Shown piece by piece: positions 5,600 through 34,526 of a DNA stretch of 64,000 nt (within the stretch, counting starts at the first letter, position 1; every line of letters starts with the position of its first letter). The position numbers and the translations under genes were made by a program. The notes under the pieces are model-generated. The model was not told the DNA's origin, ran no database searches, and saw only the letters and a program-made list of their open reading frames with translations. Source of the DNA: Chloroflexus aggregans DSM 9485 (GTDB taxonomy: Bacteria > Chloroflexota > Chloroflexia > Chloroflexales > Chloroflexaceae); contig NC_011831.1 in NCBI RefSeq assembly GCF_000021945.1, forward strand, positions 1,625,353 through 1,689,352, given 5' to 3'.

Positions 5600-5698
5600 G
5601 CCGGTGTTTCCTTTCTGGAGCTGTGCTATATCTCGACAACTGGATGGGACGCACCGCCAGCGGACGTACTGCTGTGCATCCCTACCTAACCCACCCTC

Positions 5699-5872
5699 TG
5701 CGCCTTTGCGTTATTCGCCTCTGCGTTCTCTGCGCCTTTGCGTTATTCGCCTTTGCGTTATTCGCCTTTGCGTTATTCGCCTTTGCGTTCTCTGCGCCTT
5801 TGCGTTATTCGCCTTTGCGTTCTCTGCGCCTTTGCGTTATTCGCCTTTGCGTTACCTGCCTTTGCACTCTCT
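5699..5872. repeat. Tandem repeat array, ~15-bp unit GCCTTTGCGTTATTC
   Basis: The unit GCCTTTGCGTTATTC is repeated about eleven times with variants ending in TCTCTGC. The array stops six bases before the stop codon of the amidohydrolase. Because 15 is a multiple of three, all plus-strand frames stay open, giving spurious Leu/Cys/Val/Arg-rich or Phe/Ala-rich frames. There is no clear ribosome binding site or homology, so it is not a gene. Confidence 0.85.
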
Positions 5873-5877
5873 GCATC

Positions 5878-9298: not shown

Positions 9299-10512
9299 CA
9301 TAGGACACAGATGCGCACGGGTTGGAACGGATGCGCCCAGATCGCACCGCCCAATATTCTATAGGACACAGATGCGCACGGGTTGGAACGGATGCGCCCA
9401 GATCGCGCCACCCGTGCGATCCGTTGCACCCGTGTCTATCGGTGTCCTATGCCCTCCATACATAGGACGCGGATGCGCACCGCCCAATATTCTATAGGAC
9501 ACAGATGCGCACGGGTTGGGACGGATGCGCCCGGATCGCGCCACCCGTGCGATCCGTTGCACCCGTGTCTATCGGTGTCCTATGCCCTCCATACATAGGA
9601 CGCGGATGCGCACCACCCAATATTCTATAGGACACAGATGCGCACGGGTTGGAACGGATGCGCCCAGATCGCGCCACCCGTGCGATCCGTTGCACCCGTG
9701 TCTATCGGTGTCCTATGCCCTCCATACATAGGACGCGGATGCGCACCGCCCAATATTCTATAGGACACAGATGCGCACGGGTTGGGACGGATGCGCCCGG
9801 ATCGCGCCACCCGTACAATCCGTTGCACCCGTGTCTATCGGTGTCCTATGCCCTCCATACATAGGACGCGGATGCGCACCGCCCAATATTCTATAGGACA
9901 CAGATGCGCACGGGTTGGGACGGATGCGCCCGGATCGCGCCACCCGTGCGATCCGTTGCACCCGTGTCTATCGGTGTCCTATGCCCTCCATACATAGGAC
10001 GCGGATGCGCACCGCTCAATATTCTATAGGACACAGATGCGCACGGGTTGGAACGGATGCGCCCAGATCGCGCCACCCGTGCGATCCGTTGCACCCGTGT
10101 CCATCGGTGTCCTATGCCCTCCATACATAGGACGCGGATGCGCACCGCCCAATATTCTATAGGACACAGATGCGCACGGGTTGGGACGGATGCGCCCGGA
10201 TCGCGCCACCCGTGCGATCCGTTGCACCCGTGTCTATCGGTGTCCTATGCCCTCCATACATAGGACGCGGATGCGCACCGCCCAATATTCTATAGGACAC
10301 AGATGCGCACGGGTTGGGACGGATGTACCCAGATCGCGCCACCCGTGCGATCCGTTGCACCCGTGTCTATCGGTGTCCTATGCCCTCCATACATAGGACG
10401 CGGATGCGCACCGCCCAATATTCTATAGGACACAGATGCGCACGGGTTGAAACGGATGCGCCCGGATCGCGCCACCCGTGCGATCCGTTTCACCCGTGTC
10501 TATCGGTGTCCT
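9299..10512. repeat. 133-bp tandem repeat array (nine copies plus a truncated first copy)
   Basis: The motif ATAGGACACAGATGCGCACG recurs at 9361, 9494, 9627, 9760, 9893, 10026, 10159, 10292 and 10425, an exact 133-base period. A shortened copy lies at 9299-9360. Copies differ by a few substitutions. Within each unit the first ~90 bases form a large imperfect inverted repeat: ATAGGACAC...GCACGGGT at one end pairs with ACCCGTGT...GTGTCCTAT at the other, with an inner GGATGCGCCCGGATCGCG / GTGCGATCC arm. Units therefore read similarly on both strands. The array fills the gap between two convergent genes. A related remnant at ~10526-10563 (TTAGGACACGG ... CCGTGTCCTA) ends it. The 67-71-codon frames on both strands are by-products. 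Confidence 0.9.
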
Positions 10513-10576
10513 ATTCCCTAAATAAATTAGGACACGGATGCTCATTGCCCAATCCGTGTCCTATTCACCACACTTG

Positions 10577-12032: not shown

Positions 12033-12054
12033 GAGACGCACGGCTGTGCGTCTC
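12033..12054 (-). terminator. Hairpin terminator directly after the PBP gene
   Basis: GAGACGCAC (12033-12041) pairs with GTGCGTCTC (12046-12054) around a 4-base loop. It begins one base after the PBP stop codon. There is no long T-run, so it may work as an attenuator or stabilising 3' hairpin. Similar GAGACG hairpins occur at 33.8 kb. Confidence 0.6.
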
Positions 12055-16723: not shown

Positions 16724-17803
16724 CTACCCAGATGTTGTGGTCGCCGCCATCCGGCGCGGCATCAGCACCGTATAATCAAAATCGAGCACTACCGCCGGAT
16801 CGTAATTGCCATCGGCGTCACGGTAGGGAAAATCGTGGCACGGTCGATCCTTGGTGGCAACGGTGCGTACCCGCAAGGCACCGACATCATCACGCCCCGG
16901 AATTTCCATTTTGTCGAGAATCTCCGACCAGGCGTAGATAGTATCACCGGCAAAGCTGGGGTTTGTGTGACGACCGCCATTGATAGCAGCGATGCTGAAC
17001 GCATTGGCGAGGCCGTTGAACGAGAGCGAACGGGCGAGGCTGATGATATGACCGCCGTAGACAATCCGCCGACCAAACCGACCCTCACGCTCAACGTGGA
17101 GGTTAAAGTGAACGCGGGCCGTATTCTGATACAGCCTCGTGGCCTGCATATGCTCGGCTTCCTCGATAGTGACCCCATCGATATGATCGATCTTCTCCCC
17201 AACCTCATAATCTTCCCACACATATGAGCTACCGGCACGCACAAGATCGTACTGGCCGGGGGCAATCTGGTAAGGCACTTGCAACTCGCCCACCGGAACG
17301 GCATCGGGCAACGACGGTATTACCGGTTCTGGCGCCGGTGCATTTAGATCACGTTTGCGCACCATCACCCAGCGAATATATTCTAAGACCATCTCGCCGC
17401 GCTGATTGACTCCTACCGAGTGGACATAGACAACACCGGTTTTACCATCTTTGTTCTGACGTAACCCGATCACTTTTGAGGTGGTTGAAAGGGTGTCGCC
17501 GGGATACACCACCGCGCCAAACCGGCCACCGGCATAGCCGAGATTGGCGATAGCATTGAGGGAAATATCGGGCACCGTCTTACCGAAAACAATGTGAAAG
17601 ACGAGCATGCTATCGAGGGGGGCACGGTCCAGGCCGAGATTCTGGGCAAACGGAGTCGATGATGTTACGGCAAAACGTGAGCCGTAGAGCGAGGTATAGA
17701 GGGCAACATCTCCTTCAGTGACGGTGCGCGGCGTAGCGTGAACGATCTCTTGGCCAAGCCGAAAATCCTCGAAGAAATTGCCGGGATTGGTTTTGTTGAT
17801 CAT
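16724..17803 (-). CDS. mch: Mesaconyl-C1-CoA hydratase (beta-methylmalyl-CoA dehydratase)
   Basis: This 359-residue protein is a double-hotdog MaoC-type hydratase and matches the Chloroflexus Mch of the 3-HP bicycle. It interconverts beta-methylmalyl-CoA and mesaconyl-C1-CoA in the glyoxylate-assimilating second cycle. The first hotdog has FFEDFRLGQEIVHATPRTV near residue 10-28 and TLSTTSKVIG; the second has the hydratase segment HFNLHVEREGRFGRRIVYGG near residue 230 and NPSFAGDTIYAWSEI near the C-terminus. The ATG at 17803 has AAGGAG at a 5-base spacing. It is last in a minus-strand series smtA-smtB-mct-mcl-mch, but the 19-bp repeat array lies directly before its ribosome binding site, separating it from mcl by 808 bases. 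Confidence 0.93.
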   Translation of the reverse strand: MINKTNPGNFFEDFRLGQEIVHATPRTVTEGDVALYTSLYGSRFAVTSSTPFAQNLGLDRAPLDSMLVFHIVFGKTVPDISLNAIANLGYAGGRFGAVVYPGDTLSTTSKVIGLRQNKDGKTGVVYVHSVGVNQRGEMVLEYIRWVMVRKRDLNAPAPEPVIPSLPDAVPVGELQVPYQIAPGQYDLVRAGSSYVWEDYEVGEKIDHIDGVTIEEAEHMQATRLYQNTARVHFNLHVEREGRFGRRIVYGGHIISLARSLSFNGLANAFSIAAINGGRHTNPSFAGDTIYAWSEILDKMEIPGRDDVGALRVRTVATKDRPCHDFPYRDADGNYDPAVVLDFDYTVLMPRRMAATTTSG

Positions 17804-17824
17804 TCGGTTCTCCTTTTATGGATG

Positions 17825-18605
17825 GCAATGCGATTTGGGCAACGCACCACCGCGGTGGCGACGCACGGCCGCGGTGGCGACGCACCGCCGTGTGGGCGAC
17901 GCACCACCGCGGTGGCGACGCACCACCACGATTGGGCGACGCACGCCGTGTGGGCGACGCACCACCGCGGTGGCGACGCACCACCACGATTGGGCAACGC
18001 ACGACCGTGTGGGCGACGCACCACCGCGGTGGCGACGCACCACCACGATTGGGCGACGCACGCCGTGTGGGCGACGCACCACCGCAGTAGCGACGCACGA
18101 CCGTGTGGGCGACGCACCACCGCGGTGGCGACGCACCGCCGCAGTGGCGACGCACCACCGCGGTGGCGACGCACCGCCGCAGTGGCGACGCACCACCGCA
18201 GTGGCGACGCACCACCGCAGTGGCGACGCACCGCCGCAGTGGCGACGCACCACCGCGGTGGCGACGCACCGCCGCAGTGGCGACGCACCACCGCAGTGGC
18301 GACGCACCACCACGATTGGGCGACGCACGCCGTGTGGGCGACGCACCACCGCAGTGGCGACGCACCACCGCAGTGGCGACGCACCACCACGATTGGGCGA
18401 CGCACGCCGTGTGGGCGACGCACCACCGCAGTGGCGACGCACCACCGCAGTGGCGACGCACCGCCGCAGTGGCGACGCACCACCGCGGTGGCGACGCACC
18501 GCCGCAGTGGCGACGCACCACCGCAGTGGCGACGCACCACCGCAGTAGCGACGCACCACCGCAGTGGCGACGCACCACCGCAGTGGCGACGCACGGCGTG
18601 CGTCG
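17825..18605. repeat. 19-bp tandem repeat array between mcl and mch
   Basis: About 40 copies of a unit close to ACCACCGCAGTGGCGACGC fill the whole gap between two 3-HP cycle genes. Many copies contain the 12-base perfect palindrome CCACCGCGGTGG or its one-mismatch form CCACCGCAGTGG. Interspersed longer pieces (ACCACCACGATTGGGCGACGC, then ACGCCGTGTGGGCGACGC) recur as a higher-order unit. No stop codon occurs in most frames, so long Arg/His/Ala/Thr-rich frames appear on both strands; they have no independent support. If transcribed within the operon, the RNA would form a row of short GC hairpins. Confidence 0.93.
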
Positions 18606-18611
18606 CCCCAA

Positions 18612-19664
18612 TTATTCCGTAAACCCGTAGGCCTTGGCCAATTCGGGGTCTTTTTTGGCGATCATGCGGGCAAGGTCAACGATCACCTTGGCCTGCTTCC
18701 ACGTCGCGTCGTCTTGCATCTTACCGTCGATCATTGCCACGCCAGAACCATCGGGCATTGCCTCAAGGATGCGTTTGGCGAAAAGCACCTCATTCACATC
18801 AGGACTAAAGACACGCTTGGCAATGGGGATTTGATTTGGCGCCAACGACCACGCACCGGTACAGCCGAGCAAGAAGGCGTTGCGGAATTGGGCTTCACAT
18901 GCGGCTTCATCCTTTATATCGCCGAAGGGTCCGTAGAAGGCACGTAGCCCGTTCGAGACGGCCACATCCACCATGCGGGCAATCGTGTAGTGCCAGAGGT
19001 CTTGCTGGAAGAAGGCGCGTTCGGTTTGGCCCTCTTGCGGGTCGGCCAGGACGCCGTAGAACGGATGGCCGCCGCCGACGCGGGTGGTCTTCATCCCACG
19101 CGAGGCGGCCAGATCGGCGGGGCCGAGGCTGAAGCCGTGCATACGCGGGCTGGCTCCGGCAATCGCTTCGAGGTTGACCATCCCTTGCGCCGTCTCAAGA
19201 AGGGCGTGAATGAGAATGGGCTTGCGAATCTGATGTTTGGCCTCTAGCAGAGCAAGATATTGATCGACAAAGTGGATATCCCACGGCCCTTCAACTTTCG
19301 GGATCATGATGACATCGAGTTTATTACCGACATTCGCCACAATCTCGGCAATATCATCGAGCACCCATGGGCTGTTGAGGGCATTGACCCGCACCCAGAC
19401 TGCCGTATCGCCGAAATCGGTGTTGCGCACAACCTCGATAAAGCCGGCCCGGGCAGCCTCTTTCGCATCAACCGGAATTGCATCTTCGAGGTTGCCGCAC
19501 AAGACATCAACTTGCCTGGCAACTTCGGGAATGCGGGCACGAATCTTTTCTACGTGGGGTGGGAAGAAGTGAACAACTCGCTCTGGGCGCACCGGCAATT
19601 CACGGATTGGTTCAGGAGCACCGATGGCTAATGGCTTGTAGAAATTGTGCGGTAGTTTACGCAT
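18612..19664 (-). CDS. mcl: L-malyl-CoA / beta-methylmalyl-CoA / citramalyl-CoA lyase
   Basis: This 350-residue member of the CitE/malyl-CoA lyase family is a TIM barrel with the length of the characterised Chloroflexus enzyme. It cleaves L-malyl-CoA to acetyl-CoA and glyoxylate, condenses glyoxylate with propionyl-CoA to beta-methylmalyl-CoA, and in the final step cleaves citramalyl-CoA to acetyl-CoA and pyruvate. Visible family features are NLEDAIPV near residue 58 (metal and substrate contacts), WVRVNAL, MIPKVEG near residue 120, [14 protein letters not shown] near residue 155 (metal Glu) and [11 protein letters not shown] near residue 175 (metal Asp). The ATG at 19664 follows GGAGGGG. It lies ~100 bases downstream of mct, consistent with one operon. 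Confidence 0.95.
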
Positions 19665-19762: not shown

Positions 19763-20986
19763 TCATTCCTCCGGCCCGGCGACAATGCCCTCATCGTGTA
19801 AGCGCCCTACTTCACCTTCACTCAACCCCAACACTTCCAGTAAAATCTCGTCGGTATGTTCACCAAGCCGGGGTGCAGGTCGCACGGGTAAGCGAGGCAC
19901 CTGGCTGAAATCAAGCGGCGATCCGGCCATCAGGTATGAACCGATCCCCGGTTGTTCGACCATAGCAAACATTGGGTTATCGGTAGAGCAATCTGGGTCT
20001 TGAGCAATCGCTTCGCGTACCGTCCGGTACGGCGCCCACGTCACACGGTGTTGCTCGAATACCTTGCGTACCTCGGCGAGCGTGCGCGCGTGAAACCATG
20101 GTTCAAGCAGTGCAGCAATCTCACGGCGAGCGCGGAATCGGTCGCCCTCTTCATCCATGTTGAGACCCAATCGCTCGCCGAGAGCGTTGAACGCATCGCT
20201 CAGGCCGGTCGCCTTCCCCAACGCCTTCCATTGCAAATCGGTCAACCCAACCACCATCACCCGCTTCCCGTCGAGTGTCTCGAAATCGCGCCCAAAAGCA
20301 CCATAGAGATAATTCCCCTGTTTGGGACGATCGGTGTCATTCACCATCACCTCGGCGATCATACCGAGATGGCCGATCATCGCCAGCCCGACATCTTTGA
20401 GGGCCAGTTTGACCAGTTGCCCTTCACCGGTCAGCCGGCGATGACGTTCGGCAGCCAACAAGCCGAGCGCAATCATGTGGCCGGTGATGAGATCCCACGC
20501 CGGTAACACATGATTGACAACATCGGGCGAGGTAACGGGGCCGGTCATAAATGGCAGGCCAAGTTGCGGATTGACGGTATAATCGACCTCCGACCCACCA
20601 TCCCGTCGGCCAACCAGATTCACCATAACCAAATCGGCGCGATGACGCTTAAGCGCATCGTAGCTCAACCAACCACGGGCGGGAAAGTTGGTAATGAAGA
20701 GACCGGCGTTATCACCGGGAGCGCAGATCAATTGGGTCAGCAGCTCTTGACCACGCGGATGGCGAATATCGACCGCGATAGAGCGTTTGCCTTTGTTGAG
20801 ACCGGCCCAAAACAAGCTATGCTTTCCATCAAGGGTAACCGGCCAGCGCTTGTAATCGAGACCACCACCGATGGGATCGAAGCGAATCACATCGGCCCCC
20901 AACTGAGCCAACGTCATCCCACCGAGCGGTGCAGCAACAAAGGCTGAGCCTTCGACGACACGCATACCACTGAGAATGCCGTTCAT
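19763..20986 (-). CDS. mct: Mesaconyl-CoA C1-C4 CoA transferase (family III)
   Basis: From ATG 20986 (MNGILSGMRVVEG, preceded by GAGGAG) the protein has 407 residues, as in the characterised Chloroflexus Mct. A start 16 codons upstream would place an unusual leader before the conserved N-terminus and is disfavoured. Mct moves CoA within mesaconyl-CoA from the C1 to the C4 carboxyl group in the second 3-HP cycle. The family III (CaiB/BaiF) fold is visible: GSAFVAAPLGGMTLAQLGAD at the start, the catalytic Asp in VLPAWDLITG (about residue 165), and a C-terminal RLGEHTDEILLEVLGLSEGE segment. It is downstream of smtB by ~65 bases. Confidence 0.93.
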   Translation of the reverse strand: MNGILSGMRVVEGSAFVAAPLGGMTLAQLGADVIRFDPIGGGLDYKRWPVTLDGKHSLFWAGLNKGKRSIAVDIRHPRGQELLTQLICAPGDNAGLFITNFPARGWLSYDALKRHRADLVMVNLVGRRDGGSEVDYTVNPQLGLPFMTGPVTSPDVVNHVLPAWDLITGHMIALGLLAAERHRRLTGEGQLVKLALKDVGLAMIGHLGMIAEVMVNDTDRPKQGNYLYGAFGRDFETLDGKRVMVVGLTDLQWKALGKATGLSDAFNALGERLGLNMDEEGDRFRARREIAALLEPWFHARTLAEVRKVFEQHRVTWAPYRTVREAIAQDPDCSTDNPMFAMVEQPGIGSYLMAGSPLDFSQVPRLPVRPAPRLGEHTDEILLEVLGLSEGEVGRLHDEGIVAGPEE

Positions 20987-21051
20987 GGACTCCTCTTGCC
21001 GTATCAGACTGTGACGATCACGCGGAACCGTCACAGTGCTAAACCCTCTGC

Positions 21052-34075: not shown

Positions 34076-34081
34076 AGGTGT

Positions 34082-34162
34082 AGCTCATAGGTGATAAGGC
34101 TCACCGTTGAACTGCCCGCGGGCTGATGGCCTCTACAGAAGTCACCTTCTGTAGAGGCTTTT
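34082..34162 (+). ncRNA. Candidate ~80-nt small RNA or attenuating leader with intrinsic terminator
   Basis: Between the promoter at 34047-34075 and the terminator lies a non-coding stretch with a small CCCGCGGG palindrome. The terminator is a perfect 13-bp stem (34129-34141 with 34146-34158), a TCAC tetraloop and TTTT at 34159-34162. I do not recognise an RNA family. Because a truncated MutS-like gene starts 19 bases after the terminator, the element could be its former attenuator rather than a free-standing RNA. Confidence 0.45.
34129..34162 (+). terminator. Strong rho-independent terminator
   Basis: GCCTCTACAGAAG, loop TCAC, CTTCTGTAGAGGC, then TTTT: a 13-bp perfect stem with a tail of U residues, the best intrinsic terminator in the window. 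Confidence 0.88.
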
Positions 34163-34451: not shown

Positions 34452-34526
34452 TGGTAGCGGCGGCAGGATTCGAACCTGCGACCTTCGGGTTATGAGCCCG
34501 ACGAGCTGCCACTGCTCCACGCCGCG
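34452..34526 (-). tRNA. Initiator tRNA-fMet (anticodon CAU), CCA encoded
   Basis: The minus strand folds into a complete cloverleaf with anticodon CAT in CGGGCTCATAACCCG. Three consecutive G-C pairs in the anticodon stem and a C1-U72 mismatch at the end of the acceptor stem (CGCGGCG against CGCCGCT) are the marks of the bacterial initiator. TTCGAAT is the T loop, and A73 plus CCA are encoded at the 3' end (34452-34455). The GGAGCAG and GCTCGTCGGGCTCATAACC parts match the E. coli initiator closely. Confidence 0.95.

Follow-up and report, generated by a model that had tools for sequence, protein, structure and literature searches.

A tandem array of single palindrome arms between mcl and mch of Chloroflexus aggregans: a probable minisatellite of REP origin

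The gap between the genes mcl and mch of Chloroflexus aggregans DSM 9485 is filled by a tandem array of 39 units, each consisting of one palindrome arm and a linker, and one intact palindrome is found at the mcl end (17837..18607, minus strand; positions are those of the window, which is the whole stretch of 64,000 nucleotides analyzed here). This array is probably a satellite of arms seeded by a repetitive extragenic palindrome (REP), in other words a REP-derived minisatellite, and not a regulator purpose-built for the operon.

The genes mct (19763..21034), mcl (18612..19664) and mch (16724..17803) are co-directional on the minus strand, with mct as the first gene. Mct belongs to the 2-methylfumaryl-CoA isomerase family and reaches 879.1 bits against its NCBIfam model (cut-off 725). 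Mcl is of the malyl-CoA lyase type (350 aa; 90 bits against HpcH_HpaI, cut-off 25) and Mch of the mesaconyl-CoA hydratase type (359 aa; 53.5 bits against Pfam MC_hydratase, cut-off 26.5); both score under the cut-offs of the NCBIfam models that they matched. The order is the same as that described for mch and mcl, there Caur_0173 and Caur_0174 (PMC3150298). The passing profile scores and the agreeing gene order support the 3-hydroxypropionate bicycle context proposed in an earlier note on this DNA. A probable ribosome binding site of mch, AAGGAG on the minus strand, was read from the sequence at 17810..17815. Two weak sigma-70-like matches are present on the minus strand, at 18640-18611 and at 17828-17799, the latter spanning the mch start codon; on both strands of the region together, four such matches were observed and 1.1 expected, and they were not counted in favor of a separate mch promoter. 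No intrinsic terminator was found in the array, and the two terminator-like sites between 16600 and 19800 are both located on the plus strand outside of it.

The source genome is a single contig of 4,684,931 bases, and the copy number given here is that of this one assembly, in which the mcl-mch gap comprises 808 bp with 74% GC. The gap-filling array of about forty 19-bp units described in the earlier note is real. Splitting at [G/A]ACGCAC yields 39 units, only 30 of which are 19 bp long, while five have 21 and four 18 bp; Tandem Repeats Finder reports 17838-18594 with a period of 19, 39.5 copies and 82% matches. The array ends about 20 bp ahead of the AGGAG of mch, and at the other end the palindrome begins 4 nt after the mcl stop codon. 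The perfect palindrome said to occur in many units, CCACCGCGGTGG, is present in only eight of the 39, and these eight sites are the only ones in the genome. Higher-order expansion was borne out: the longest exact repeat within the array spans 128 bp, its two copies being offset by 230 bp, which indicates that groups of units were duplicated together. The array is not a product of chance. For a pair of tandem cores, the source genome has 41 matches, of which 36 fall in the mcl-mch array and five in other arrays; the reversed pattern, used as a control, has no match there. Across 41 genomes of the family, all 41 matches of the source genome stand beside at most two in any other, and the two-unit pattern had no match in a genome-contig collection which may exclude the source genome.

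In the order of transcription, the mcl stop codon TAA is followed by TTGG and then by the intact palindrome GGCGACGCACGCCGTGCGTCGCC (transcript strand; 18585..18607, minus strand), which has 23 nt, a stem of 11 and a loop of 1. The units of the array carry one arm of this palindrome and a linker. With respect to known REPs, the terminal palindrome is intergenic and lies within the 20-40 bp of GTAG REPs, it belongs to a multi-copy family (14 core sites in the source genome and none for the reversed control) and, at 4 nt from a stop codon, it is closer than the 16 nt below which REPs of E. coli are described as acting on the preceding gene. The GTAG tag itself was looked for at 18585-18607 and is not there; ATTG takes its place. 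The array units, tested in the same way, are not whole palindromes but one arm and a linker each.

The family to which the core belongs can be followed through the genus, where the source genome is denoted G000 and seven congeners G001-G007. Counting each site once, the pattern GACGCAYGGCN{0,1}GTGCGTC occurs 14 times in G000, 29 times in G002, 22 times in G005, twice in G004 and once in G007. It has no site in G001, G003 and G006, and the reversed pattern has none in any of the eight genomes. Among 33 copies from 20 loci of G000, G002 and G005, the core is accompanied by GTAG in 18 copies, by GTAA or GTAC in nine and by neither in six, and many single copies are tagged on both sides. REPs in general usually carry GTAG as their tag (PMC8266576, PMC3733652).

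Copies of the core are found close to matches of the RAYT model (REP-associated tyrosine transposases), namely at about 40 bp in G000 (1754259), at about 60 bp in G002 (C33), where they are also present within the match, and at about 55 bp in G004 (C8). These matches score 42.7, 38.2 and 42.1 bits, all below the curated cut-off of 80, and the genes are therefore termed RAYT-like; against Pfam Y1_Tnp, the G002 gene reaches 20.1 bits (cut-off 23) and another has no match. In G000, the RAYT model matches 12 times. Eight of these matches make up five loci that were treated as RAYT-like, whereas the other four were left out, being located within 136-aa IS200-type genes. Only the locus at 3983524 passes the cut-off, and a perfect palindrome lies within the matched span at four of the five (C1 1754259, 2213369, 3994016 and 4026103). 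The RAYT-like gene of G002, a 247-aa frame (C33 86231-86974, L117), contains a GTAG-REP together with two 21-bp arm units, all of them read in frame. As a separate observation, Y1-transposase matches (PF01797) number 16 in G000, nine of them in 136-aa open frames, as compared to zero to four in the seven congeners.

G000 also contains 114 copies of another group of palindromes, GGGCGAC..GTCGCCC (control 0), as compared to one to seven copies in the seven congeners (control 0-7); 64 of the 108 copies read have GTAG at one or both ends. One RAYT-like gene (68.6 bits, cut-off 80) abuts an array of this group of about 1.6 kb.

The layout found between mcl and mch is not confined to this gap. Five loci of G000, the mcl-mch gap among them, display an intact palindrome when read from the tagged end, and its second arm is then repeated in tandem, either bare or joined to a linker. 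The four further palindrome-headed arrays are located at 4670.4 kb (19 bp x 25.8, GTAG), at 3400.5 kb (18 bp x 21.9, GTAC; its unit still includes a shortened palindrome instead of one bare arm), at 1152.6 kb (10 bp x 25.2, GTAG, the TAG being the stop codon of the preceding open frame) and in the gap after rnc, a gene assigned by Pfam (36 bp x 14.4, GTAG). The genes adjoining these similar arrays are unrelated. Arrays of whole REPs are also present in G000, examples being those at 4022.8 kb (36 bp x 15) and 3491.5 kb (59 bp x 3.5). Other repeats of different kinds were seen as well. Within the window, a 133-bp tandem array at 9343-10553 (9.1 copies, 96% matches) has palindromic parts of other sequence, and a nested array at 5696-5874 has periods of 15, 32 and 47 bp with the unit CGCCTTTGCGTTATT. 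Elsewhere in the genome (L105, G000:C1 4199.2-4201.7 kb), CRISPR-type repeats (CTTCAAAACACCAAAATCCCCGTGAGGGGATTGAAAC) are followed, after a few hundred bases, by a large palindrome array, and in L051 (2577-4634; G000:C1 2813.1-2815.1 kb) three similar consecutive open frames of 223, 223 and 209 aa apparently represent a recent gene triplication.

Short forms of the layout are found in congeners. The window contains a single GTAG-tagged copy of the family after a penicillin-binding protein gene (12035..12052, minus strand), which was read from the sequence, as the palindrome finder allowed loops of up to 3 and passed over it. At the orthologous place, G002 has a single REP, and G005 has a GTAG-REP with three 22-bp arm units, 5 kb past its mch. 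Short forms with two arm units are present in G005 (C328) and, as described above, inside the RAYT-like gene of G002 (C33). When the three-unit stretch of G005 is aligned with the mcl-mch units, arm and linker both match and every unit shows the same 3-nt gap; the score of 55 compares with a maximum of 30 in 1000 shuffles and with 18 on the other strand. A genome search with the G005 stretch as query finds the mcl-mch array at E 1.3e-7. A GTAG or GTAC head could be read at seven loci, four of them in G000, two in G005 and one in G002, and in all seven cases the arms are located on the side away from this head. This polarity was not taken as evidence, because many single copies are tagged on two sides and several of the loci came from a query of that layout.

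The array is absent from the mcl-mch gap of all six congeners in which both genes were read, that is all but G004, which has only an mch fragment at a contig end. The gaps measure 21 bp in G001, 29 in G003, 62 in G007, 105 in G006, 315 in G002 and 324 in G005. A palindrome with the same core is present in the gap of G002 (GACGCATAGCCGTGCGTC) and G005 (GACGCATGGCTGTGCGTC), the hairpins of G006 and G007 differ from it in sequence, and no notable hairpin was seen in the gaps of G001 and G003. Four of six congeners have gap hairpins, with fold z values of -1.9 to -5.8. In an unrooted tree of the mcl and mch codons, G000, G002, G005 and G007 are set apart from G001, G003 and G006 with a support of 70.

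These data are best explained by the following course of events. A REP palindrome, of the family found beside RAYT-like transposase genes, would have arrived just past the mcl stop codon. One arm together with adjoining DNA would then have been duplicated, and the copies may have multiplied, and been partly homogenized, by slippage or unequal recombination up to the present 39 units, leaving over one intact palindrome at the mcl end. The gap, if transcribed, would be an untranslated hairpin-rich spacer.

Alternatively, such a chain of hairpins might be a selected intercistronic regulator, expanded and kept to set the ratio of mcl to mch by protecting the mcl mRNA and lowering mch, and E. coli operons do use structures of this kind (PMC5927463). 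In the earlier note, the hairpins were suggested to block Rho, to protect the upstream mRNA or to lower mch relative to mcl. Folding of the gap appears to speak for it. The minimum free energy of the transcript strand is -590.1 kcal/mol at 37 °C and -432.3 kcal/mol at 55 °C, as compared to -457.1 and -311.9 kcal/mol for the other strand, and dinucleotide shuffles of the gap reach about -485 kcal/mol instead of -590. Against 30 such shuffles each, the transcript strand has z values of -13.2 (37 °C) and -12.8 (55 °C) and the other strand of -7.0 and -2.8. Dinucleotide shuffling, however, destroys the tandem order, whereas permuting the columns of the 30 19-bp units keeps a tandem array of the same make-up. 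Under this control, the folding of the real array is matched by 14 of 200 permuted arrays and its strand difference by 21 of 200, and the support for a selected RNA structure drawn from the shuffles is weakened. Strong folding is mostly a property of the GC-rich tandem array, and since 14 of 200 permuted arrays do equally well, hairpins alone do not demonstrate selection. The hairpins in the gaps of four congeners would be in line with a regulatory role. The two gaps of 21 and 29 bp, in which no notable hairpin is seen, are not. A purpose-built regulator is considered unlikely, given that the array is confined to one lineage, that arrays of a similar kind adjoin unrelated genes and that column permutation can yield arrays which fold equally well.

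An ordinary minisatellite, grown by slippage of local sequence, would owe its likeness to REPs to the coincidence of GC-rich palindromic DNA. This would agree with the tandem arrays of many periods in the source genome and with the lack of GTAG at the terminal palindrome. Yet the core is common to a palindrome family whose reversed controls are empty, arm and linker are homologous to the REP-headed units of G005, and the layout recurs at four further loci, three of them headed by GTAG and one by GTAC, which makes such a coincidence very unlikely.

A far-reaching version of REP origin, in which RAYT-driven satellites of REP arms actively place adjustable hairpin spacers in operons, seems highly improbable. 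Here, the transposase would cut at the tail side of the REP, the arm would be re-copied, and the length of the array between mcl and mch would set the dosage of mch and thereby how fast C. aggregans strains grow autotrophically. Growth rates reported with sulfide, at different sulfide levels, are 0.035 doublings per hour in the type strain, 0.043 in NBF and 0.080 in ACA-12, and a genome is listed there for the type strain only (PMC6759344).

That the array is part of a coding region or a translated linker can practically be dismissed: two of three transcript-strand frames are stop-free over 808 nt, the third having one stop, and one frame overlaps mch by ATGA at its end, but the frame rotates because 30 of 39 units are 19 bp long, mcl carries its own TAA, DinB_2 on one ORF reaches 25.9 bits (cut-off 24.8) with no single stretch passing, and a second ORF tested had no match. 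Besides a coding identity, tests on the array also rejected a CRISPR, a BIME and an intrinsic terminator. It shares short repeats in a row with CRISPR arrays but consists of continuous 19-bp units without unique spacers, and BIMEs require alternating REP orientation, whereas all arms of this array have the same direction. Rfam contains no family matching the array; in the window it finds only one tRNA and one fluoride riboswitch (36.3 bits, gathering 34), which occupy 34081-34142 and 34455-34526, about 300 bp apart and on opposite strands.

Effects of the array on mcl or mch would be plausible. In E. coli, a REP reduces translation of the preceding gene when it lies less than 16 nt from a stop codon (PMC12306157). 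Since the intact hairpin starts 4 nt past the mcl stop codon, this rule would predict that mcl is affected no less than mch. The likeliest consequences would be slower termination or turnover at mcl, owing to the stable hairpin so close to its stop codon, as well as weaker coupling and some polarity on mch. A measurable effect of the array on expression is possible, though somewhat doubtful. The main text of a metatranscriptome paper on C. aggregans (PMC8004040) mentions neither mch nor mesaconyl or malyl-CoA.

Among known systems, the array resembles the GTAG REPs associated with RAYT genes (PMC2817692, PMC3733652, PMC8266576) in that short GC-rich palindromes occur in many copies, are mostly tagged with GTAG in this genus and lie near RAYT-like genes. 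In contrast to these, a single arm with a linker is repeated here in place of an entire element, and the terminal palindrome is without GTAG. The REP and REPIN clusters of Pseudomonas fluorescens SBW25 (PMC3116915) are similarly amplified in tandem with flanking DNA near RAYT genes, but in the description cited they repeat whole REPs or pairs up to a dozen or so times, compared to 39 single-arm units here. With the intercistronic REPs of E. coli (PMC12306157, PMC5927463) the array shares a hairpin in an operon gap, in this case 4 nt past the stop; it belongs, however, to another phylum and has a spacer of 808 nt. Term searches of one paper collection found no literature on Chloroflexus together with REP-associated tyrosine transposases or repetitive extragenic palindromes, and none on intergenic tandem repeats of C. 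aggregans.

REPs are known as single elements, as pairs and as clusters of whole elements. Here, one arm has probably given rise to minisatellites with units of 10-36 bp at five loci of the same genome, and the presumed founder palindrome is still present at one end. Due to the short forms with two or three units in congeners, the step from palindrome to array becomes readable and testable. One of these arrays separates two genes of the 3-hydroxypropionate bicycle, a place at which any influence on gene dosage could be measured.
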